From positions 434,001 through 498,000 of the forward strand of contig NZ_JARRAH010000001.1 in the NCBI RefSeq assembly GCF_030553305.1: a stretch of DNA of 64,000 nt, in the 5' to 3' direction. The translations under genes were made by a program, and so were the position numbers. Under the pieces are notes generated by a model, which was not told the DNA's origin, did no database searches, and saw only the letters and a list, made by a program, of their open reading frames with translations. The stretch is from Halomarina ordinaria. Its GTDB lineage: Archaea; Halobacteriota; Halobacteria; Halobacteriales; Haloarculaceae. This document shows, one piece after another, positions 6,904 through 20,335 of the stretch (position 1 is its first letter; each line of letters opens with the position of its first letter).

Positions 6904-7839
6904 TCAGTCCGAGCGGTCGACGCGCGGCGAGCGCCCCCACCCGACGAGCCACTGGCGGAGCGAGAGCGTCGGGCGCTCGGCGAGCGGTTCGGGGTAGCGG
7001 TCGCGCGTCTGCATGTAGTTCACCAGCGTGACGAGGAAGACGCCGCCGACGGTGTTGCCGAGGACGACCGGCGTGACGAACTCCCAGAGCACCGGCAGGA
7101 TGCCGGTTCCGGTCTCGAACGCGAGGTAGAACGCGTCGCAGATGGACACGACCGAGTGGTACAGCCCCCCGACGGGGATGCAGAGGAAGATGACGTAGAC
7201 GAGGACGATGCGGCTGATGGTGTCGCGCGAGGCGTGTTCGAGCCACACCAGCCCCGCGACCAGCCACCCGGCGAACAGCGCCTTCGCGAAGAGGTCCCAC
7301 CACGACGTCTCCAGGGCCTCCGTCCCGAACCCGACGGCGACCGCGGCCGCCGGCGGCGAGAACACGCCGGTCTGGGAGAGGACCAGCGCCCCGAGCGCCG
7401 CGCCGACCGCGTTCGCACAGAGGACGACCACCCAGATGCGCAACAGCGCCGGGACGCTCGTCAACCGCGTCAGCACGAGCGCCACCGGCGGGAGCGTGTT
7501 CTCGGTGTACAGCTGATACCGGCCGATGATGATGTAGACGAAGCCGATGGGGTAGAGCACTGCCCCGACCGTCGGCCCCATCGGTCCCGGGACGGCGGCC
7601 GTGACGACGGCGTGCAGGAGGAACGCCAGCGTGATGGCGAACCCCGCCGCCAGTCCGCTGAAGAACAGCTCTCGCGTCGTCGCGTCTATCTCCTCGTCCG
7701 CGCTCACGATGACGCGCTGGAATATCTCGTCGGCCGAGAAGCGGTCGCGGATGACCTTCCCATCGGCGGGCGCCCCGCTCTGGGACCGGTCGACCGCATC
7801 GCGGACTTCCGACTCGGGGTCTCGGGGTGTAGACGTCAC
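6904..7839 (-). CDS. Formate/nitrite transporter (FNT) family channel
   Basis: 311 residues with six membrane helices. The soluble N-terminus carries FSADEIFQRVIVSADEEI, the FNT-family entry helix. The segment LVLCANAVGAALGALVL corresponds to the FNT signature NxxG in helix 3, and GNTVGGVFLVTLVNYMQT to the conserved end of the last helix. FNT channels pass small monovalent anions or acids such as formate, nitrite or hydrosulfide, and the sequence does not say which. There is a 40-residue acidic N-terminal extension. No nitrite reductase, formate dehydrogenase or other partner gene is nearby. Confidence 0.85.
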   Translation of the reverse strand: MTSTPRDPESEVRDAVDRSQSGAPADGKVIRDRFSADEIFQRVIVSADEEIDATTRELFFSGLAAGFAITLAFLLHAVVTAAVPGPMGPTVGAVLYPIGFVYIIIGRYQLYTENTLPPVALVLTRLTSVPALLRIWVVVLCANAVGAALGALVLSQTGVFSPPAAAVAVGFGTEALETSWWDLFAKALFAGWLVAGLVWLEHASRDTISRIVLVYVIFLCIPVGGLYHSVVSICDAFYLAFETGTGILPVLWEFVTPVVLGNTVGGVFLVTLVNYMQTRDRYPEPLAERPTLSLRQWLVGWGRSPRVDRSD

Positions 7840-7982
7840 TGTTCGGGTTCTCGACAGGTGTACGGGCTGGACTCAGTGGTCGTCGGTGCCGGCCACCCGC
7901 ACGGAGGGGTGTGGACACACGACGCTCCGGAGGCGTCGAGACGAGAAAAGGGTTGGTTGCGACCGATTTCGGGACCGACTCG

Positions 7983-8912
7983 TCAGTCGTCCGATTCGCC
8001 CGTCGCGCTCGCCGCGCCCGTCGCCCCTGCCGACAGGCCGTCGACGGAGAGCGTGCCCGTCAGTTCGCGGTAGGGGTAGGGCATGTCGATGCCCTCGGCG
8101 TCACAGCGCTCCTTGACGGCGGAGACGAACTCCGACTGGGCGCCGACGATGTCGGCCCGGGAGGGGTCGGCTATCCAGAAGCGCGCCTGGAGGCCGACCG
8201 CCGAGTCGCCGAGTTCGGTGACGCGCACCGAGGGCGCCGGGTCGTCGAGGATGCCCTCGCACGCCGACGCCTCGTCGAGGATGACCTCCGTCGCGTGCGT
8301 GATGTCGTCGTCGTAGCCGATGCCGAAGACGAACGTGCGCCGGAGTTTGTCGTAGGCGACGGGGTTGACCAGCGCGTTGTTCGCGAGGTCGGAGTTCGGC
8401 ACCGTGATGCGCTCGTTGTCGAAGGTGCGAACGCGCGTCACCCGGAGGTCTATCTCCTCGACGGTCCCCGACATGTCCTCCCACTCGATCCAGTCACCGA
8501 TGTCGAACGGCCGGTCCTTGAGGATGAAGATGCCGGCGACGAAGTTGCTGAGCAGGTCCTGCGCGGCGAAGCCGAGCGCCAGCGCCAGCGCGCCGCCGAT
8601 GGTCGCGAAGGCGGCGAGGAAGGCACCGAACCCCGCGACGGTGAACGCGACGGCGACGGCGGCGAAGAGCACGACGATGCCGATGACGTTCCGGGCGAGG
8701 CTCCGGATCGTCTCGTCGAACCCGCGCGCGTGCATCGCGCGGTTCAACAGCGGCATGACCACGAGCCGTCCGAGGAGGTAGACGACGACGAACGCGACGA
8801 CGAACGCGACGACGTCACCGATGAGACCGCCGTACAGTTCGACGGCCTGGTCGAGGTCCCGTGGGACGAGCGGCTCCGACTGCAACGGTGAGGATGACGT
8901 ACCTTGAATCAT
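7983..8912 (-). CDS. mscS: Small-conductance mechanosensitive channel (MscS family)
   Basis: 309 residues. Three or four membrane helices lie in residues 25-140, the last being the Gly/Ala-rich pore helix (ALALALGFAAQDLLSNFVAG). After it comes the beta domain with ILKDRPFDIGDWIEWEDMSGTVEEIDLRVTRVRTFDNERITVPNSDL, the MscS signature. The alpha/beta C-terminal domain ends near residue 290, followed by a low-complexity Ser/Ala/Gly tail. These channels open under membrane tension and release solutes on osmotic downshift, which matters for a halophile. ATG at 8912 is followed by a short polar N-terminus. It is monocistronic. Confidence 0.9.
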   Translation of the reverse strand: MIQGTSSSPLQSEPLVPRDLDQAVELYGGLIGDVVAFVVAFVVVYLLGRLVVMPLLNRAMHARGFDETIRSLARNVIGIVVLFAAVAVAFTVAGFGAFLAAFATIGGALALALGFAAQDLLSNFVAGIFILKDRPFDIGDWIEWEDMSGTVEEIDLRVTRVRTFDNERITVPNSDLANNALVNPVAYDKLRRTFVFGIGYDDDITHATEVILDEASACEGILDDPAPSVRVTELGDSAVGLQARFWIADPSRADIVGAQSEFVSAVKERCDAEGIDMPYPYRELTGTLSVDGLSAGATGAASATGESDD

Positions 8913-9511: not shown

Positions 9512-10696
9512 TTAATCCCTCTGGCGCGAGGGGCCGACCTCCCGGAGGTGACGGTAGGCGAGCGTCGAGAACCGCGGGTCGAGGCGGCTCGGGGGGCGTC
9601 CTCGGCCTGCGTCGCGCGCGGCGACCGTCACGCGGTCGAGGACGCCCGACTCGGCGAGTTCGTACAGCACGCGCGTGACCGTCCCCGGCGAGAGCGCGAC
9701 CGAGGGGTCGGCGGCGATGGCGGTGGCGGTGGCGCTGACCGACGTGCGCTGGTCGTCGTCGAGGTCGACGACGCGGTCGAGGACGACGGCCGAGGCGTCC
9801 GTCAGCGCGAGCACGCGACCGAGCGGAATCCCGCCGGCCGGGACCGCCGCGATGCCGGCGTCGACGTGGGCGTCCGTCAGGCGCTCGCCGCCCGCTTCGA
9901 GGGCGGCGTCGACCGCACAGAACAGCGCGCAGACGGCGTCGTGGGCGTTCCCCTCCGCCCAGGTGGCGATGCGGACGAGCTGGTCGTGGGTGAACGCCCG
10001 CGGGGAGAGCCCCTCCACCGCCCGGGCGGTGAGGATGTCCTCGACGGCGTGACGGTCGTACGCCGGCACCGGGACGTGCTGGACCGGGGCGTCGGCCGCC
10101 GGGCCCTCTCGCCCGACGCAGAGCGTCGCCACGGGGCCGGAGAGCGCGTCGAAGCGCTCCCGCACGACCGACGCGGGGTAGGTCTCGGGTTCGCCGACGT
10201 GGTCGACGACCAGCAGGACCCGCCGGTCGTGCTCGTCGAGCCACGCGTCCAGCCGGTCCCGGAGGTCGTCGGTCCGGACGCCCCCTCGCGGCGGCTGTTC
10301 GTCGGTGAGACCGTCGAGCGCGGCGTAGTAGAGGCCGAACGCGCTCGACGCCGTCCGCGCGTCGACGTAGTGAAAGACGAACGACGGGGCGGTCGTCCCC
10401 GCCCGGGTCGTCGTGTAGATGGCCCGTCCGTTGCTCGAGAGCAGGCGCGAGAGGTGTCCGACCAGCGCGGTGACGACCGCCGACTTCCCGCTCCCGGCGG
10501 GGCCGGAGAGGACCGTGTCGGTCGGCAGGTCGTCCTCGAACACGGGGGCGACGGCGTCGAGCAGTCGCTCCAGGACGGGACCGCGCCCGACGGGTTCCGC
10601 CGGGTGGACGAGGGGGTTCAGCGCGTCCTCGTCGCGGACGAGGTGGACGTCGCCGTCGGTTCGCTGTCGCCTGAGGATGCGTTCCTCGAAGTTCAT
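9512..10696 (-). CDS. Orc1/Cdc6-like AAA+ protein, divergent
   Basis: 394 residues. Walker A GPAGSGKS is at 65-72. The Walker B strand reads LLVVDH (161-166), with His where replication initiators have Glu. The C-terminus carries a winged-helix region (about 310-385: VTRVLYELAESGVLDRVTV). Overall layout is that of haloarchaeal Orc1/Cdc6 paralogues, which bind origins. The altered Walker B suggests weak or no ATP hydrolysis, so this may be a regulatory or decayed paralogue. No origin-like repeats or AT-rich unwinding element are visible in the 39-base gap upstream. It follows the glpK-facilitator genes on the same strand, an odd operon partner. Confidence 0.75.
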   Translation of the reverse strand: MNFEERILRRQRTDGDVHLVRDEDALNPLVHPAEPVGRGPVLERLLDAVAPVFEDDLPTDTVLSGPAGSGKSAVVTALVGHLSRLLSSNGRAIYTTTRAGTTAPSFVFHYVDARTASSAFGLYYAALDGLTDEQPPRGGVRTDDLRDRLDAWLDEHDRRVLLVVDHVGEPETYPASVVRERFDALSGPVATLCVGREGPAADAPVQHVPVPAYDRHAVEDILTARAVEGLSPRAFTHDQLVRIATWAEGNAHDAVCALFCAVDAALEAGGERLTDAHVDAGIAAVPAGGIPLGRVLALTDASAVVLDRVVDLDDDQRTSVSATATAIAADPSVALSPGTVTRVLYELAESGVLDRVTVAARDAGRGRPPSRLDPRFSTLAYRHLREVGPSRQRD

Positions 10697-10735: not shown

Positions 10736-11800
10736 TCAGAACGCCGGTTGCGGCACCCAGACGGCCGACGGGAAGACGCCGAGCAGCGCGAGCACGCCGA
10801 TGATGAGCGTCCCGAAGACGATGGCGGCCGCGGGCGGGTCCCAGTGGGTGTCGCCGTGGGCGTAGAACACGCGCTGGAAGACCTCGCCGAACAGCGCGCA
10901 GACGAGCCCGAACAGCGCCCCGACGAGTAGCATCGCCACGACGGGGCCGTCGGCGACGGCCGTCCCCTCGGGGACGATGGCGAGCGCCGCCGTGCTCGCG
11001 GGCAGCGACATGTGGTGGGTCACGGGGATGTTCGCCACCCCGAGGTTGAGGAAGACGAGGCTCGCCGCGCTGATGCCGAACGCGAGGAACGCGCTCTCGG
11101 TCACGAAGGCGATGTACGCGCCGAGGACGCCCACGACGGCGCCGATGGCGGCGACGTTCGCCCACTTGTACTGGTGGGGGAGCCACGGTTCGACGAGGAA
11201 CCGGGCGGTCGCCGCCCCGCCGTCGGTCGCCTCGCCCCCCGCGTCGCTCGTTCCCGGTTCGCCGATGACGCGACGCTCCTCGGACTCGAACGGCGACATG
11301 TCGAGCAGGCCGGTCCGCCGGTCGCCGATGATGCCGTAGCCGAAGGCGACGCGGTGGACGAGCGCCGAGAGGGTGACACCCAGCGCGATGGGGTCCCAGG
11401 GAAGCGCGAGCTGACTCGAGAGCGTCGTGATCCAGTAGCCGACGACGCCGAAGACGGCGCCGACGGCGAGCACGTCGGGTTTCGTCCCGAGCGCGTAGCC
11501 GATGTCCTTCGCGTCGTGGTAGTCGAAGCCGGGGTCATCGATGTACCCCTTCTTCGCGGCGTAGGCGGTGGCGGCCGCCCCCGCCGCGAAACTGATGTGC
11601 GGGCCGAAGACGGGGCCGAAGGCGATACTGCCCGTGATGGCGCCCGCGTCGGCGTCGACGTACGCCGCCGCCTCCCCCGCGATGACCATGAAGCCGGTGA
11701 AGATGAACGCCGGGAGCGCGCCGAGGGCCGCGCCGAAGGCGCCGCCCGCGAGCGCGGCGATGAGGAGTTCGACGGTGAAGAACGCCGAGATGTCGACCAT
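10736..11800 (-). CDS. glpX: Putative glycerol facilitator, multi-pass membrane protein downstream of glpK
   Basis: 354 residues with about nine membrane helices rich in Gly and Ala. The central polar stretch (about residues 165-205, ESEERRVIGEPGTSDAGGEATDGG region) is a cytoplasmic or external loop. It is not MIP-family GlpF: there are no NPA motifs. In Haloferax the same kind of gene follows glpK in the glycerol operon and has been proposed to be a glycerol facilitator; that assignment rests on context. The ATG at 11800 overlaps the glpK stop (TGATG), showing translational coupling. The symbol follows haloarchaeal usage and is unrelated to bacterial fructose bisphosphatase GlpX. Confidence 0.7.
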   Translation of the reverse strand: MVDISAFFTVELLIAALAGGAFGAALGALPAFIFTGFMVIAGEAAAYVDADAGAITGSIAFGPVFGPHISFAAGAAATAYAAKKGYIDDPGFDYHDAKDIGYALGTKPDVLAVGAVFGVVGYWITTLSSQLALPWDPIALGVTLSALVHRVAFGYGIIGDRRTGLLDMSPFESEERRVIGEPGTSDAGGEATDGGAATARFLVEPWLPHQYKWANVAAIGAVVGVLGAYIAFVTESAFLAFGISAASLVFLNLGVANIPVTHHMSLPASTAALAIVPEGTAVADGPVVAMLLVGALFGLVCALFGEVFQRVFYAHGDTHWDPPAAAIVFGTLIIGVLALLGVFPSAVWVPQPAF

Positions 11801-13341
11801 CACTCACCACCCTCTCTCGCCCAGCCCCGCGAGCAGTCGACGGCGTCGATCCAGCGCGCGTGGAGCGCGTCGGCGTCCTCGGGGTTCATGTCGGGGGTGA
11901 ACTCGCGGTCGACCTGCCAGTTGTCGCGGAGTTCGTCGATGGTCTCCCAGTAGCCGACGGCGAGGCCGGCGGCGTACGCCGACCCGAGCGCCGTCGTCTC
12001 GTCGACCTCCGGGCGGACGATGTCCGTCTGGACGATGTCCGACTGGAGCTGACAGAGGAAGTTGTTCTTCACCGCGCCGCCGTCGACCCGGAGGCTCGCC
12101 ATCTCGATGCCGGAGTCGGCCTCCATCGCCTCCGCGACGTCGCGCGTCTGGTAGGCGATGGACTCCAGCGTCGCCCGCACGAGGTGTTCCTTCCCCGTCC
12201 CGCGGGTCATGCCGACGATGGTGCCGCGCGCGCGGCCGTCCCAGTGGGGTGCCCCGAGGCCCGTGAACGCGGGCACGAGGTAGACCCCGTCGGTCGAGTC
12301 GACGCTCCGCGCCAGCGTCTCGGTCTGGGCGGGGTTGTCGATGAGTTCGATGTCCTCCAGCCACTGGATGGCGGCGCCGGTGATGAAGATGGCCCCCTCC
12401 AGCGCGTACTGGACGGGTTCGCCCGAGCGCTGGAAGCCGACGGTCGTCAGCAGGCCGTGGTCGCTCTCGACGGGTTCCTCGCCCGTGTTCATCAGGAAGA
12501 ACGAGCCGGTGCCGTAGGTGTTCTTCGCGGCGCCGGGGTCGAAGCAGGTCTGGCCGAACAGCGCCGCCTGCTGGTCGCCGAAGGCGCCCGCGACGGGGAC
12601 CGCCGCCCCGAGGAAGCCGTCGGGGTCGGTGTGCCCGTAGAGGTCCGCGTCGCTCGACGGGCGCACCTCCGGGAGGATGGACTCGGGGACGTCGAACTCC
12701 GCCAGGAGTTCCTCGTCCCACTCCATCTCGCGGATGTTGAACAGCATCGTCCGGGAGGCGTTGGTCACGTCGGTGATGTGGTTCCCGGTGAGACGGTCGA
12801 TGAGCCACGAGTCGATGGTGCCGAAGCGGAGTTCCCCCTGCTCGGCGCGGTCGCGGACGTCCTCGGGCCGCGTGCGCTGGAGTTTGATGGGGTCGGCGTT
12901 GTCCAGCAGCCACTCCACCTTCGTCGCCGAGAAGTAGGCGTCGACCTCCAGTCCCGTCTTCTCGCGGATGGGACCGGCCATCCCCACCTCCTGGAGCTCC
13001 TCGACGCGGTCGGTCGTACGCCGGTCCTGCCAGACGATGGCGTTGTGGATGGGCCGTCCCGTCTCCTCGTCCCAGATGAGCGTCGTCTCGCGCTGGTTGG
13101 TGATGCCGAGGGCCGCCAGCTGTTCGGGGTCGAGGCCCTCCTCTTCGAGCGCGCGAGTGACGACGGTCTGGGTGTTCTCCCATATCTCGACCGGGTCGTG
13201 CTCGACCCAGCCGGGTTCGGGGTAGATCTGTTCGTGCGTCTCGTAGGCGTTGGCGACGACGCGGCCCGCGTGGTCGAAGACCATGAACCGCGTGCCGGTC
13301 GTCCCCTGGTCGATCGCGCCGATGTATGTCTCGTCTGTCAC
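11800..13341 (-). CDS. glpK: Glycerol kinase
   Basis: 513 residues of the FGGY kinase family. It phosphorylates glycerol to glycerol-3-phosphate with ATP. Seen are the first phosphate-binding loop IGAIDQGTTGTRFMVFD, the ITNQRETTL and WQDRRT substrate-site segments, YFSATKVEWLLDN, GDQQAALFGQ, and the FGGY C-terminal signature region VPAFTGLGAPHWDGRARGTIVGMTRGT. The start is taken at GTG 13341, giving (V/M)TDETYIGAIDQG, the usual haloarchaeal N-terminus; a GTG nine codons earlier is possible. It is transcribed away from gpdABC across a shared control region with repeated TTTATCG/CGATAAA operators and is coupled to the facilitator gene. Confidence 0.95.
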   Translation of the reverse strand: MTDETYIGAIDQGTTGTRFMVFDHAGRVVANAYETHEQIYPEPGWVEHDPVEIWENTQTVVTRALEEEGLDPEQLAALGITNQRETTLIWDEETGRPIHNAIVWQDRRTTDRVEELQEVGMAGPIREKTGLEVDAYFSATKVEWLLDNADPIKLQRTRPEDVRDRAEQGELRFGTIDSWLIDRLTGNHITDVTNASRTMLFNIREMEWDEELLAEFDVPESILPEVRPSSDADLYGHTDPDGFLGAAVPVAGAFGDQQAALFGQTCFDPGAAKNTYGTGSFFLMNTGEEPVESDHGLLTTVGFQRSGEPVQYALEGAIFITGAAIQWLEDIELIDNPAQTETLARSVDSTDGVYLVPAFTGLGAPHWDGRARGTIVGMTRGTGKEHLVRATLESIAYQTRDVAEAMEADSGIEMASLRVDGGAVKNNFLCQLQSDIVQTDIVRPEVDETTALGSAYAAGLAVGYWETIDELRDNWQVDREFTPDMNPEDADALHARWIDAVDCSRGWAREGGE

Positions 13342-13400: not shown

Positions 13401-13437
13401 ATTGTTTATCGCCACACGCAACACACCGATAAACAAT
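13401..13437. promoter_or_regulatory. Operator-like inverted repeat 1 between glpK and gpdA
   Basis: ATTGTTTATCG (13401-13411) and CGATAAACAAT (13427-13437) are perfect 11-bp arms separated by 15 bases. The core TTTATCG-N15-CGATAAA recurs with the same spacing at 13551-13579. This copy lies on the glpK side. The AT-rich stretch that follows (AATATTGAATATTATTATAAA) probably holds the promoter elements. Confidence 0.65.
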
Positions 13438-13550
13438 ATTGAATATTATTATAAACCTTGCTCATGGAATCCGACATGTTCCGGGGAACACGTCGATTGG
13501 CCGGTATGTACGCGCCGCGTACGCGCCGCCGAGTCCCCTCGCACCGATTC

Positions 13551-13579
13551 TTTATCGCCGGTTATCTACCGACGATAAA
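13551..13579. promoter_or_regulatory. Operator-like inverted repeat 2 upstream of gpdA
   Basis: TTTATCG (13551-13557) and CGATAAA (13573-13579), 15 bases apart. The right arm runs into GATAAAATAAAG (13574-13585), a likely TATA box for gpdA about 35 bases before its ATG. A protein bound here would cover the promoter, so repression is more likely than activation. Haloarchaeal GlpR (DeoR family) is a plausible but unproven ligand; no glpR gene is in the window. Confidence 0.65.
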
Positions 13580-13616
13580 ATAAAGTGTGCGCGGCGCATC
13601 TCGTGGTTAGCGACCG

Positions 13617-15287
13617 ATGCCCACGGAGACTGATGTCGTGGTGATCGGCGGGGGGTCGACCGGCTGCGGTATCGCCCGGGACCTGGCGATGCGCGGCGTG
13701 GACGTCACACTCGTCGAGAAGGGAAACCTGACCCACGGAACGACCGGACGGATGCACGGCCTGCTCCACAGCGGTGGACGCTACGCCGTCTCCGACCAGA
13801 AGAGCGCGCGCGAGTGCATCGAGGAGAACCGCGTCCTGCGGGACATCGCGAGTCACTGCGTCGAGTTGACGGGCGGCTACTTCGTCCAGATGGCGGACGA
13901 CCCCGACGAGTACTTCGAGGAGAAACTCGCGGGCTGTCGCGCCTGCGACATCCCCGCCGAGGTGGTCGACCGGGAGACGCTCCTGCGCGAGGAACCGTAC
14001 CTCTCGCCGGACGTGCGGCGGGCCATCCGGGTACCCGACGGCGCCGTCGACCCGTTCCGCCTCTGCGTGGCCAACGCCGCCAGCGCCGAGGAGTTCGGCG
14101 GGCGCGTCGAGACCCACGCGGCGGTGACCGACGTCCTCGTCGAGGACGGCGAGGTGGTCGGCGTCGAGGTCACCCACGACGCGGGGCCCGCGAAACACGG
14201 CGAGGGAGAAGGCGTCGAGGAGATACACGCCGACCACGTCGTCAACGCGACGGGCGCGTGGGCCGGGCGCCTCGGCGCGATGGCCGGCGTCGACGTCGAG
14301 GTCCGCCCCTCGAAGGGCGCGATGGTGGTGATGAACTGCCGGCAGGTCGACAAGGTGGTCAACCGCTGTCGACCGAAGGGCGACGCCGACATCGTCGTCC
14401 CCCACGAGACGACGGTCATCCTGGGGACGACCGACGAGGAGGTCGAGGACCCCGAGGACTACCCCGAAGAGCAGTGGGAGGTCGACCTCCTCGTCGACGA
14501 ACTGGCCCAACTGGTCCCCGTCCTCGCCGACTCGCGGACGGTCCGCTCGTTCTGGGGCGTCCGTCCGCTGTACGAACCGCCGGGCACCGGGACGGCCGAC
14601 CCGACGGACATCACGCGCGACTTCTTCCTCCTCGACCACGACGAGCACGACGACCTGCCCGGCATGACCTCCATCGTCGGCGGGAAGTTCACCACCTACC
14701 GCATGATGGCCGAGTCCATCAGCGACCACGTCTGTGCGAAACTCGGCGTGGACGCGCGCTGTCGCACCGCGGAGGTACCCCTCCCCGGGAGCGACGACTT
14801 CTCGGTGCTCCGCGACTACATGGAGGAGTTCGGCCTGCGCTCGCCCGTGGGCCGCCGGAGCGTCCAGCGCCTCGGCAGTCGTGCCGACGAGGTGCTCCGC
14901 ACCGAGGAGGCGAACCCCGTCGTCTGCGCCTGCGAGGCCGTCACCCGCGCCGAACTGCGCGACGCCATCTCGCAGTCGGGGCCGGACCTCAACGCCGCGC
15001 GCATCCGGACCCGCGCCTCGATGGGGAACTGTCAGGGCGGGTTCTGCGCCCACCGGATGGCGTTCGAACTCCACCCCGACTACGAGGAACCGACCGTCAC
15101 CGCCGCGTTCGACGACCTCTACGCCGAGCGCTACAAGGGCGTCCGACACGCGCTGTGGGGCGAACAGCTCTCGCAGGCGATGCTCACCCACGCGCTCCAC
15201 GGCGCGACGATGAACCGCGACGGCGACCCCGCGCGCAACGACGGGGTCGACTTCGCCGCCTTCGACGGAGGCCAGCGTGGCGATTGA
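13617..15287 (+). CDS. gpdA: Anaerobic-type glycerol-3-phosphate dehydrogenase subunit A
   Basis: 556 residues. It oxidises glycerol-3-phosphate to dihydroxyacetone phosphate using FAD. The N-terminal Rossmann motif is [21 protein letters not shown] (about 6-26), followed by [15 protein letters not shown] typical of GlpA. The C-terminal third carries a Cys-rich segment, [13 protein letters not shown] and GNCQGGFC, a BFD-like [2Fe-2S] region of archaeal GlpA. Start ATG 13617. The gene overlaps gpdB by 11 bases, so the three subunits are made together. With glpK it forms the route from glycerol, a main carbon source in brines because algae make it as osmolyte, to triose phosphate. Confidence 0.95.
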
Positions 15288-16578
15288 GGACGACGTCCTC
15301 GTCGTCGGCGGTGGGCTGGCCGGCCTGAGCGCGGCGATTCGCGCCGCCCGGACCGGCGCGCGGACCCGCCTCGTCTCGCACAAGGAGAGCACGCTCCGGC
15401 AGGCGTCGGGCCTCGTCGACGTCCTCGGCTACGCCCCCCGACCGGTGGGAGCGGCGGCCGGTGAGGCGACGCCCCTCTCTGACCCCTTCGAGGCGTTCGA
15501 CGACCTCCCCGGCGAGCACCCCTACGAGCACGTCGGGCGCGAGGGCGTCCGCGAGGGCCTCGCCTTCTTCGACGACCTCGTGGGCGATGCCTACCGGGGG
15601 GGCCACACCGACCGCAACGCGCTCGTCCCGACCCACGGCGGCGCGGTGAAACCCACCGCGCGCTACCCCGCGAGCGTGGCCGACGGCCTCGCGAGCGACG
15701 ACCGGGCGGCGCTCCTGGTCGGCTTCGACGCCGTGACGGACTTCTCCGCCGAGTACGCCGCCGACCACCTCCGGGCGGCCGGCGTCCCCTTCGACGTGCG
15801 GGGGGCGACGGTGTCGTTCCCGGGCGAGGTCCGCGCCGACGCCGCCCTGACGCACCTCGCCCACGCCCTCGACGAGAACGAACTCGTCGAGCACGAGGGC
15901 TCCCGCGTCGGCACGCGGACGGCGCTGGCCGAACTGGTGCGCCCCCACCTCGGGGACGCAGAGCGCGTCGGCTTCCCCGCGCTCCTCGGGATGGACCACC
16001 CGGAGGAGGTCAGGGCGTCGCTCTCACGGCTGCTCGACGCCGCCGTCTTCGAGGTGCCGATGGGCCCGCCGAGCCTCCCGGGGATGCGCCTCGCGGCGCG
16101 ACTGCGCGACGCCGCCGACGCGGCCGGCGTCAGGGTGACGACGGGCGTCCCCGTCGTCGGCTACGACGCGGAGGGCGACCGCATCGAGACGGTGGCCGTC
16201 CGCCACGAGCGCCAGCGCGTCCCCTACCGGGCCGAGCAGTACGTCCTCGCCACCGGGGGCCTCGTCGGGAAGGGCATCGGCTCCGACCGGTCGGGCGTCA
16301 GCGAGGCCGTCTTCGACTGTCACGTCCCCCACCCCGCGGACCGCTACGACTGGTTCGAGGACGGCGCGTTCGACGCCCACCCCTTCGCCCGCTTCGGCGT
16401 GCGGACCGACCGGGACCTCCGGCCGCTCGACGCGACCGACGAACCGCACTACGAGAACCTCCGGGCCGCCGGCGCGGTCCTCGGGGGCTACGACCTCGCG
16501 GCGGAGTGCTCCGGCAGCGGCGTCTCGCTCGCCACGGGCGTTCGCGCCGGCACCATCGCAGGAGAGACGACCACATGA
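15277..16578 (+). CDS. gpdB: Glycerol-3-phosphate dehydrogenase subunit B
   Basis: 433 residues. FAD/NAD-fold protein with [21 protein letters not shown] at about 7-27. GlpB is the second flavoprotein-like subunit of the GlpABC complex and passes electrons from GlpA to GlpC. Starts with GTG at 15277 inside the gpdA coding sequence and ends overlapping the gpdC start (ATGA). The C-terminal [25 protein letters not shown] is the conserved second dinucleotide-binding segment of the family. Confidence 0.9.
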
Positions 16579-17864
16579 GTGACGCCACAGACCCCACCGA
16601 CGACGCGTTCGACGACGAGTACCCCGTGCAGGTGTTCCCCGAGGCCGAGGAGATGGACCTCCGTCCGGGCACCGACAACTGTTACAAGTGTTCGAGCTGT
16701 GATACTTCCTGTCCGGTCGCGGAGGTGGACGACACCTTCCCCGGGCCGAAGTTCCAGGGACCGGAGCAGTGGCGCCTCACGCGCAAGGAGGACGCGGAGG
16801 TCGACCCCTCCATCAAGCAGTGTTCGAACTGCATGCGCTGTGACTCGGCGTGTCCCTCGGGCGTGCCGCTCACCCAGATGCACAACACGGCCCGCGCGAA
16901 GTACGTCGAACAGCAGGGGTTCTCGCTCGGCTACCTCCGCGACCGCATCCTCGCCAACTACGGCACCCTCGCACGCCTCGGGTCCGCGATGCCCCGCGTC
17001 ACTAACTTCGTGATGGGCCTCGGCGTCACGAAACTGTTCAACGAGCGGGTGCTCGGCATCACGTCGGAGCGGGAGTTCCCCGCGTTCGCCACCGAGACGT
17101 TCCGCGAGTGGTGGGCCGACCGGGGAGGTGCCCGGGTGGTCGACGAGGAGAAGCGCGTCGCGTACTTCCACGGCGACTACGCGAACTACAACACGCCGGA
17201 GGTGGCGAAGGCGCTCGTGCGCGTCTTCGAGGCGTTCGGCTACGAGGTGACCGTCCCCGACCAGCGCTGTTCGGGGACGCCGATGTTCGCCAACGGGATG
17301 ATGGACGACGCCCGGCGCTCGGCGAAGTTCAACGTCGAGACCTTCCGCGAACTCGTCGAGGAGGGGTACGACGTGGTCTGTTCGTGTACCTCCTGTTCGA
17401 TGGCGCTCCGGACGGAGTACCCCGAACTGTTCGACTTCGAGGGGACCGACGCCGTCGCGGACCACACCTACGACGCGGTCGAGTACCTCCGCATCCACGA
17501 GGACCTCGCCGGGGCGCTCGGCGCGTCGTCGGTCGACCTCGGGGAGTTCGCCTACCACGCCCCCTGTCACGCCCGCAACCAGGGGCTGGCGAACCAGTCG
17601 CGCGAGGTGTTCGCCGACCTCGAGGGCGTCGAGGTGACGGACGTCGGCGACTCCTGTTCGGGCATCAGCGGCACCTACGGCTGGAAGGAAGAGCACTACG
17701 ACACGTCGATGGCCATCGGCGAGGAGATGTTCGAGCACATGGAGGGCGTGCCCTCCGGGGAGGGGATGACCGAGTGTCCGACCTGTGCGATGCAGATGGA
17801 ACACGGCACCGGCTACGACATCAGCCACCCGCTGGAGGTGCTGGAGGCCGCGCTGGTCGACTAG
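16575..17864 (+). CDS. gpdC: Glycerol-3-phosphate dehydrogenase subunit C (iron-sulfur, CCG domains)
   Basis: 429 residues. Two [4Fe-4S] motifs near the N-terminus: CYKCSSCDTSCPV (about 36-48) and CSNCMRCDSACPSG (about 79-92). Two cysteine-rich CCG domains follow, marked by CSGTPMFANG, CSCTSCSMAL, HAPCHARNQG and DSCSGISGTYGWK. GlpC anchors the dehydrogenase to the membrane and feeds electrons to the quinone pool. Start ATG overlaps the gpdB stop. The TAG stop shares the palindrome CTAG with the stop of the convergent antiporter gene, leaving no room for a separate terminator. Confidence 0.95.
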   Translation: MSDATDPTDDAFDDEYPVQVFPEAEEMDLRPGTDNCYKCSSCDTSCPVAEVDDTFPGPKFQGPEQWRLTRKEDAEVDPSIKQCSNCMRCDSACPSGVPLTQMHNTARAKYVEQQGFSLGYLRDRILANYGTLARLGSAMPRVTNFVMGLGVTKLFNERVLGITSEREFPAFATETFREWWADRGGARVVDEEKRVAYFHGDYANYNTPEVAKALVRVFEAFGYEVTVPDQRCSGTPMFANGMMDDARRSAKFNVETFRELVEEGYDVVCSCTSCSMALRTEYPELFDFEGTDAVADHTYDAVEYLRIHEDLAGALGASSVDLGEFAYHAPCHARNQGLANQSREVFADLEGVEVTDVGDSCSGISGTYGWKEEHYDTSMAIGEEMFEHMEGVPSGEGMTECPTCAMQMEHGTGYDISHPLEVLEAALVD

Positions 17865-19858: not shown

Positions 19859-20335
19859 TCAGTCCTCGAGGTCGGCACCGCGGAAGCCGTGGTACGGACA
19901 GACGTACTCGTTCCGGATGAGTTCCTCGTCGGAGATGTGGAGGCCGAGCGCGCTCAGTTCGCGCCCGAGGCGGCTCAGGTCGTCGTGGTCGCGCCCGACG
20001 GCGTTGACGTAGACGTTGTGGTCGCCGGTCATCACCTCCCGGACGGCCGCGACGCCGGGGACCTCGAGGGCGCGCCGGGCGAGTTCCTCGCGCTCGTCGA
20101 TGGGGGCGGTACAGATGAGTTTCGTGTAGAGGGGGAAGCCGGCGGCCTCGTAGTCGATGTCGACGTGGTACCCCCGGATGATGCCCGCCTGTTCGAGGCG
20201 CTGGATGCGGTTGCGGACGGTGCTCGCCGAGATGTCCATCTCCCCGGCGATGTCGCCCGAGGAGGTGCGTCGCGCGTCGCGCTGGAGTTCGTAGAGGATT
20301 CGTCGGTCCACGTCGTCGAGTTCGCCGTCTCGCAT
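19859..20335 (-). CDS. Lrp/AsnC-family transcriptional regulator
   Basis: 158 residues. Helix-turn-helix at about 6-58 (LDDVDRRILYELQRDARR, STVRNRIQRLEQAGIIRGYHVDIDYEAAG), then the RAM/ASNC ligand-binding domain (about 70-145), including VPGVAAVREVMTGDHNVYVNAVGRD with the GDxD-type effector loop. Such regulators respond to amino acids and often control nearby genes. It lies between mdh-like and trkA-N genes on the same strand with separate gaps (60 and 238 bases). Confidence 0.9.
   Translation of the reverse strand: MRDGELDDVDRRILYELQRDARRTSSGDIAGEMDISASTVRNRIQRLEQAGIIRGYHVDIDYEAAGFPLYTKLICTAPIDEREELARRALEVPGVAAVREVMTGDHNVYVNAVGRDHDDLSRLGRELSALGLHISDEELIRNEYVCPYHGFRGADLED

Follow-up and report, generated by a model that had tools for sequence, protein, structure and literature searches.

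The window, that is, the whole 64,000-nucleotide stretch of Halomarina ordinaria DNA that was analysed, contains a glycerol locus in which glpK, a glpX-like gene and an orc15-like gene are ordered as a single operon, with gpdA, gpdB and gpdC divergent from position 13617. Two inverted repeats accompany these genes: O1 upstream of glpK, which starts with GTG at 13341 on the minus strand, and O2 upstream of gpdA, which starts with ATG at 13617. The features are as follows.

9512 to 10696, minus strand: orc15-like gene, third gene of the glpK-glpX-orc15 operon; Orc1/Cdc6-like AAA+ protein with a C-terminal winged helix, the proposed repressor, which co-occurs with the repeat motif.
10736 to 11803, minus strand: glpX-like gene of the glpK operon, encoding a membrane protein without a Pfam or NCBIfam family and conserved downstream of glpK.
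11800 to 13341, minus strand: glpK, glycerol kinase (NCBIfam TIGR01311 and NF000756, above cut-off), with a GTG start and a TGA stop.
13401 to 13437, no strand: O1, the glpK-side repeat ATTGTTTATCG-N15-CGATAAACAAT, exact in the sequence; about 50 orthologous glpK promoters have a site at the same place.
13448 to 13455, minus strand: glpK TATA box, which reads TTTATAAT on this strand and precedes O1 by exactly 14 nt; the TTTATAAT-N14-operator register is conserved.
13551 to 13579, no strand: O2, the gpdA-side repeat TTTATCG-N15-CGATAAA, exact in the sequence, its right arm joined to ATAAAG.
13573 to 13584, plus strand: gpdA TATA-like element CGATAAAATAAA, which shares bases with the right arm of O2; conserved TAAA-RTAAAG, a putative TATA box.
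13617 to 15287, plus strand: gpdA, glycerol-3-phosphate dehydrogenase subunit A (TIGR03377, above cut-off).
15277 to 16578, plus strand: gpdB, glycerol-3-phosphate dehydrogenase subunit B (NF003722 and TIGR03378, above cut-off).
16575 to 17864, plus strand: gpdC, glycerol-3-phosphate dehydrogenase subunit C (NF008369 and TIGR03379, above cut-off).

The glpX-like membrane protein (10736-11803) is a candidate glycerol transporter.

The original prediction described two inverted repeats with identical 7-bp cores and identical 15-base spacing, and both are exact in the sequence: the 29-bp core of O1 (13405-13433) reads TTTATCGCCACACGCAACACACCGATAAA, and O2 (13551-13579) reads TTTATCGCCGGTTATCTACCGACGATAAA. 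The 11-bp perfect arms ascribed to the first repeat are likewise present (ATTGTTTATCG at 13401-13411 and CGATAAACAAT at 13427-13437), and the arm centres within each repeat lie 22 bp apart, in agreement with the suggestion of dimer-like half-sites separated by two helical turns. The repeats were said to lie 150 bases apart; they are indeed separate sites, one at glpK and one at gpdA, although the measured offset between their starts is 146 bp. The second repeat was also expected to enter the gpdA TATA box, and the right arm of O2 is indeed fused to ATAAAG, which directly follows it and would serve as the TATA element. When the window was shuffled and up to three mismatches were allowed, 0.22 matches were obtained on average, compared with two real matches that have no mismatches. 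Within the 3.61-Mb genome, O1 and O2 are the only two copies of the perfect repeat TTTATCG-N15-CGATAAA, and a whole-genome scan with the degenerate pattern TTTAYYR-N15-YRRTAAA at zero mismatches returned the same two sites only. The proposal of a glycerol or catabolite regulator site is supported for glycerol; a broad catabolite motif that serves other sugar genes is unlikely, since the genome-wide search gave nothing beyond O1 and O2.

The suggested use of the repeat as a search motif proved productive across the class Halobacteria. When the motif was looked for in orthologous glp regions, it was present across the class, with the consensus TTTAYYG-N15-CRRTAAA conserved upstream of glpK and/or gpdA at fixed promoter positions. 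In a sample of 45 glpK upstream regions (44 other haloarchaeal loci and the window), TTTAYYG half-sites separated by exactly 15 bases were counted 53 times, compared with 0.65 in shuffles, and other spacers 0-13 times; spacings of 19-21 are also enriched, which, by inspection, is due to a further RTAAAG repeat next to the operator of gpdA. When the whole class was scanned for exact matches, 22 of 116 genomes had sites, compared with one genome for a reversed control pattern, and the matches outside coding sequence are mostly in glp promoters. Most of the matches away from glp genes (L157, L160, L162, L166, L168 and L173) lie inside coding sequence and were taken as chance. Three loci whose genomes belong to different genera (L162, L166 and L167, at 1501-1529) have an identical motif in the coding sequence of a stretch that is nearly the same in each; this suggests a shared mobile element, in which the motif is probably coincidental. 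Elsewhere, a canonical site lies 57 nt upstream of a gene resembling GlpA/glycerol-3-phosphate oxidase (L155:1501-1529, in G069), a possible extra regulon member, and another lies upstream of an ORF (L164).

The sites also keep a constant relationship to the promoter elements. On the glpK side, the context TTTATAAT-N14-TTTACYG is conserved across loci. Transcription of glpK should begin approx. 25-27 nt downstream of the TATA box, within O1, and an operator located 14 nt past the TATA box should thus cover the start site, as placed by its distance from that box. On the gpdA side, the right arm of the operator is separated from the ATG by 30-37 nt (mode 36) in 41 of 41 loci, and the arm continues into RTAAAG. 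In several lineages, Haloarcula-like ones included, a second glpK operator is found 50-52 bp (five turns) upstream, with the TATA box between the two, and such bracketing of the TATA box by two operators about five turns apart favours repression. Four loci with tandem operators 52 bp apart around the glpK TATA box (L221, L215, L259 and L264) belong to genera g3 (Haloarcula-like) and g5. Integral helical turns, a strict spacer of 15 and a fixed register in orthologues are all found here, as would be expected of a palindromic operator for a dimeric winged-helix regulator. The geometry is that of an operator, and repression is the mode most consistent with it. It is possible, but on balance unlikely, that Orc15 acts at the same operators as an activator, at gpdA if not at both, by recruiting TFB/TBP when glycerol is present. 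The gpdA operator lies just upstream of the TATA/BRE and overlaps it, and Sulfolobales Orc1-2 binds promoters of genes that it activates (PMC10470591); however, the glpK site lies downstream of the TATA box and over the presumed start site, which is a typical place for a repressor.

The case for Orc15 as the repressor begins with the genomic context. In the conserved-neighbour search across the class, orc15 recurred beside glp genes and was linked to them nearly everywhere, and no other regulator was found to be conserved at the glp locus. The gene was found in 76 of 116 genomes, essentially all of which have glpK; only G066 seems to lack it, and there a truncated glpK adjoins orc15 at the end of a contig. 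In two tests that treat genomes as independent, the motif was present in 53 of 75 glpK genomes with orc15 vs. 0 of 17 without it (first set, fixed score threshold, Fisher p=3.6e-8) and, among 79 further genomes of the window's family that were fetched afterwards and scored by the same rule, in 47 of 53 with orc15 vs. 3 of 26 without it (p=1.8e-11). Two of the three genomes with the motif and without orc15 are MAGs less than 90% complete; in G177 (91% complete), a site scoring 11 is present and orc15 was not detected. Within the window's own genus, G157 has neither orc15 nor the motif, and its congeners have both. On a GlpK tree of 170 genomes, orc15 changed independently 10-11 times, and the motif changed in the same way in about five cases and in the opposite way in about none (median sign-test p 0.0625); after correction for phylogeny, the direction is consistent and the significance borderline. 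Approximately one fifth of the orc15-bearing genomes are without the canonical motif, mostly in a few clades, some with variant elements that were found post hoc.

The recognition helix of Orc15 covaries with the motif. Where the canonical motif is present, the helix typically reads LSAGTVKRFLYEL. At the position that follows TV, 33 loci have K, and all of these have the canonical site; 19 loci have R, and 17 of these lack it. The R loci belong to few clades and thus represent a small number of independent events. In 14 of 14 genomes of the Halorubrum-like R clade, TTCACGR-N15-CCGTGAA occupies the same TATA+14 position, with one arm sometimes varied by a base; this element was noticed after the fact. 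Upstream of glpK in L220, L246, L253 and other Halorubrum-like loci, it is held within a long, strongly conserved block. In Halorubrum, one-mismatch repeats of 7 bp occur frequently and at many spacings, so it is position and half-site similarity that argue for a variant, and on these grounds TTCACGR-N15-CCGTGAA is probably a variant operator in Halorubrum-like loci. The covariation also bears on whether the repeats are bound by a different, unlinked transcription factor (of IclR, TrmB or Lrp type), with Orc15 as no more than a functional partner or ATP-dependent co-regulator encoded in the operon. Haloarchaea have many unlinked regulators, and an Lrp/AsnC gene is present in the window at 19859-20335; however, it is the helix of Orc15 that follows the motif, the locus has no other conserved regulator, and the C-terminus of Orc15 is itself HTH_IclR-like in 11 of 38 members, which leaves an unlinked factor distinctly unlikely.

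Orc15 has the Orc1/Cdc6 fold, i.e., an AAA+ core, a lid and a C-terminal winged helix (profile match to 2qby_A, 3.9e-30). Its structure model (pLDDT 91.5, pTM 0.88), in which the winged helix is confidently folded, gives full-length Foldseek matches to Cdc6/Orc1 structures (2qby_A, E=2.3e-20; 2v1u_A, 1.7e-18), and Cdc6_lid is found in 37 of 38 homologues. The protein nonetheless falls far below the TIGR02928 family cut-off (58.7 bits vs. 181.3). Besides the orc15-like gene, contigs C1-C6 of this genome carry at least 13 Orc1/Cdc6 loci above that cut-off. When compared with the Orc1 proteins of its own genome, in which the catalytic residues are intact, Orc15 has lost the Walker B Glu (DH, not DE), the sensor 1 Asn (R), the arginine-finger segment (deleted) and the sensor 2 Arg (H), and D165/H166 is invariant in the 38 homologues. 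Together with the match of the C-terminus to HTH_IclR, these features would fit a DNA-binding regulator better than an initiator.

The gene is not new to annotation. In Haloferax volcanii, orc15 is HVO_1537 and is given as a replication initiator (PMC2841640, Table 4); like the window gene, it encodes approx. 400 aa assigned to COG1474. Judging from context and length, H. volcanii Orc15 probably belongs to the R recognition-helix subgroup with the variant operator. Its locus number comes directly before that of gpdA1 (HVO_1538). No function is assigned to orc15 in the literature that was found, and an earlier mention of the repeat is possible. Second Orc15-like paralogs lie beside ugpB, ugpA and ugpC-like genes for a glycerol-3-phosphate ABC transporter in two separate haloarchaeal lineages (L281:1076-5497 and 7659-8897; L280:7743-8984; L282:2676-8299). 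In addition, a plasmid-borne Orc15 relative in Haloarcula pelagica (L319:6917-8164) is located near Gfo6 and aldehyde dehydrogenase genes and approx. 4 kb from a glycerophosphodiester phosphodiesterase gene; glp and ugp genes are absent to a distance of 7 kb from it.

The presence of an Orc1/Cdc6 homologue nearby, and the fact that many haloarchaeal orc genes adjoin ORB repeats (PMC3528665), might suggest that O1 and O2 belong to a replication origin next to an orc gene, as its origin recognition boxes. This is very improbable: the sites are tied to the TATA boxes and start codons of glpK and gpdA and not to orc15, which in one family follows gpdABC, approx. 5 kb from the sites, and in G069 is unlinked, with the sites kept; moreover, Orc15 is without the ATPase residues, and in PMC3528665 a G-string was a requirement for calling an ORB, which O1 and O2 do not have. 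Least credible of all is the DeoR-family repressor GlpR, which the original prediction had put forward as the binder and to which the glycerol genes and the naming of GlpR in bacteria point, but which is ruled out in this organism by gene absence and phyletic distribution, as this genome is without a full DeoRC protein (best PF00455 fragment, 23.7 bits vs. a cut-off of 31.8), full-length matches occur in a minority of the 116 genomes, with many motif-bearing genomes lacking one, and published GlpR of Haloferax acts on fructose and glucose genes (PMC12853182).

The repeats are thus probably operators of a local regulator of glycerol catabolism, with Orc15 (9512-10696), encoded by the last gene of the glpK-glpX-orc15 operon, as that regulator; we infer direct binding, dimerisation, repression and a ligand from the sequence patterns described above. 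Orc15 would bind as a dimer, each subunit contacting one TTTAYYG half-site through its winged helix, with two helical turns between the half-sites. The bound dimer would mask the transcription start of glpK, immediately past the TATA box, and the TATA/BRE region of gpdA, and both divergent operons would be repressed, orc15 itself included. Release may be brought about by glycerol or glycerol-3-phosphate, or by a change in nucleotide state.

Among known systems, Orc1-2 of Saccharolobus/Sulfolobus is an Orc1/Cdc6 paralog that regulates transcription in response to DNA damage (PMC10470591). This Sulfolobales protein offers the nearest known mechanism, and Orc15 would be its metabolic counterpart in another lineage: like Orc1-2, it would be an Orc1/Cdc6-family protein that acts as a promoter-binding regulator and not as an initiator. 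However, Orc1-2 runs a DNA-damage network, whereas Orc15 belongs to a haloarchaeal family that is divergent and whose AAA+ residues are degenerate; its gene is in a glycerol operon, and its candidate operator is a 29-bp inverted repeat at glycerol genes only. GlpR of H. volcanii is similar in being a repressor in glycerol-related catabolite control, but it belongs to the DeoR family, regulates sugar genes and is absent from this genome. Bacterial GlpR (DeoR) and GylR (IclR) locally repress glpK/glpD-type operons and are released by inducer; compared with Orc15, they have an unrelated protein scaffold and a different operator architecture.

With somewhat less assurance, we lean towards the broader view that Orc15, a replication-initiator paralog, has become a metabolic repressor that is dedicated and catalytically degenerate, and that its paralogs control glycerol-3-phosphate uptake. 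According to a 2025 paper, the mechanism that activates haloarchaeal glycerol metabolism is not fully understood (PMC12853182). The reason for so many cdc6 genes in haloarchaea is likewise unclear, and H. hispanica strains without most of their cdc6 genes exist (PMC3936714). The present finding joins glycerol control with the surplus of cdc6 genes; the operator, of 29 bp, and the candidate gene that it names can both be tested. If it is true, part of the haloarchaeal orc/cdc6 gene surplus would consist of transcription regulators and not of initiators, and orc15 would no longer be annotated as a replication initiator.
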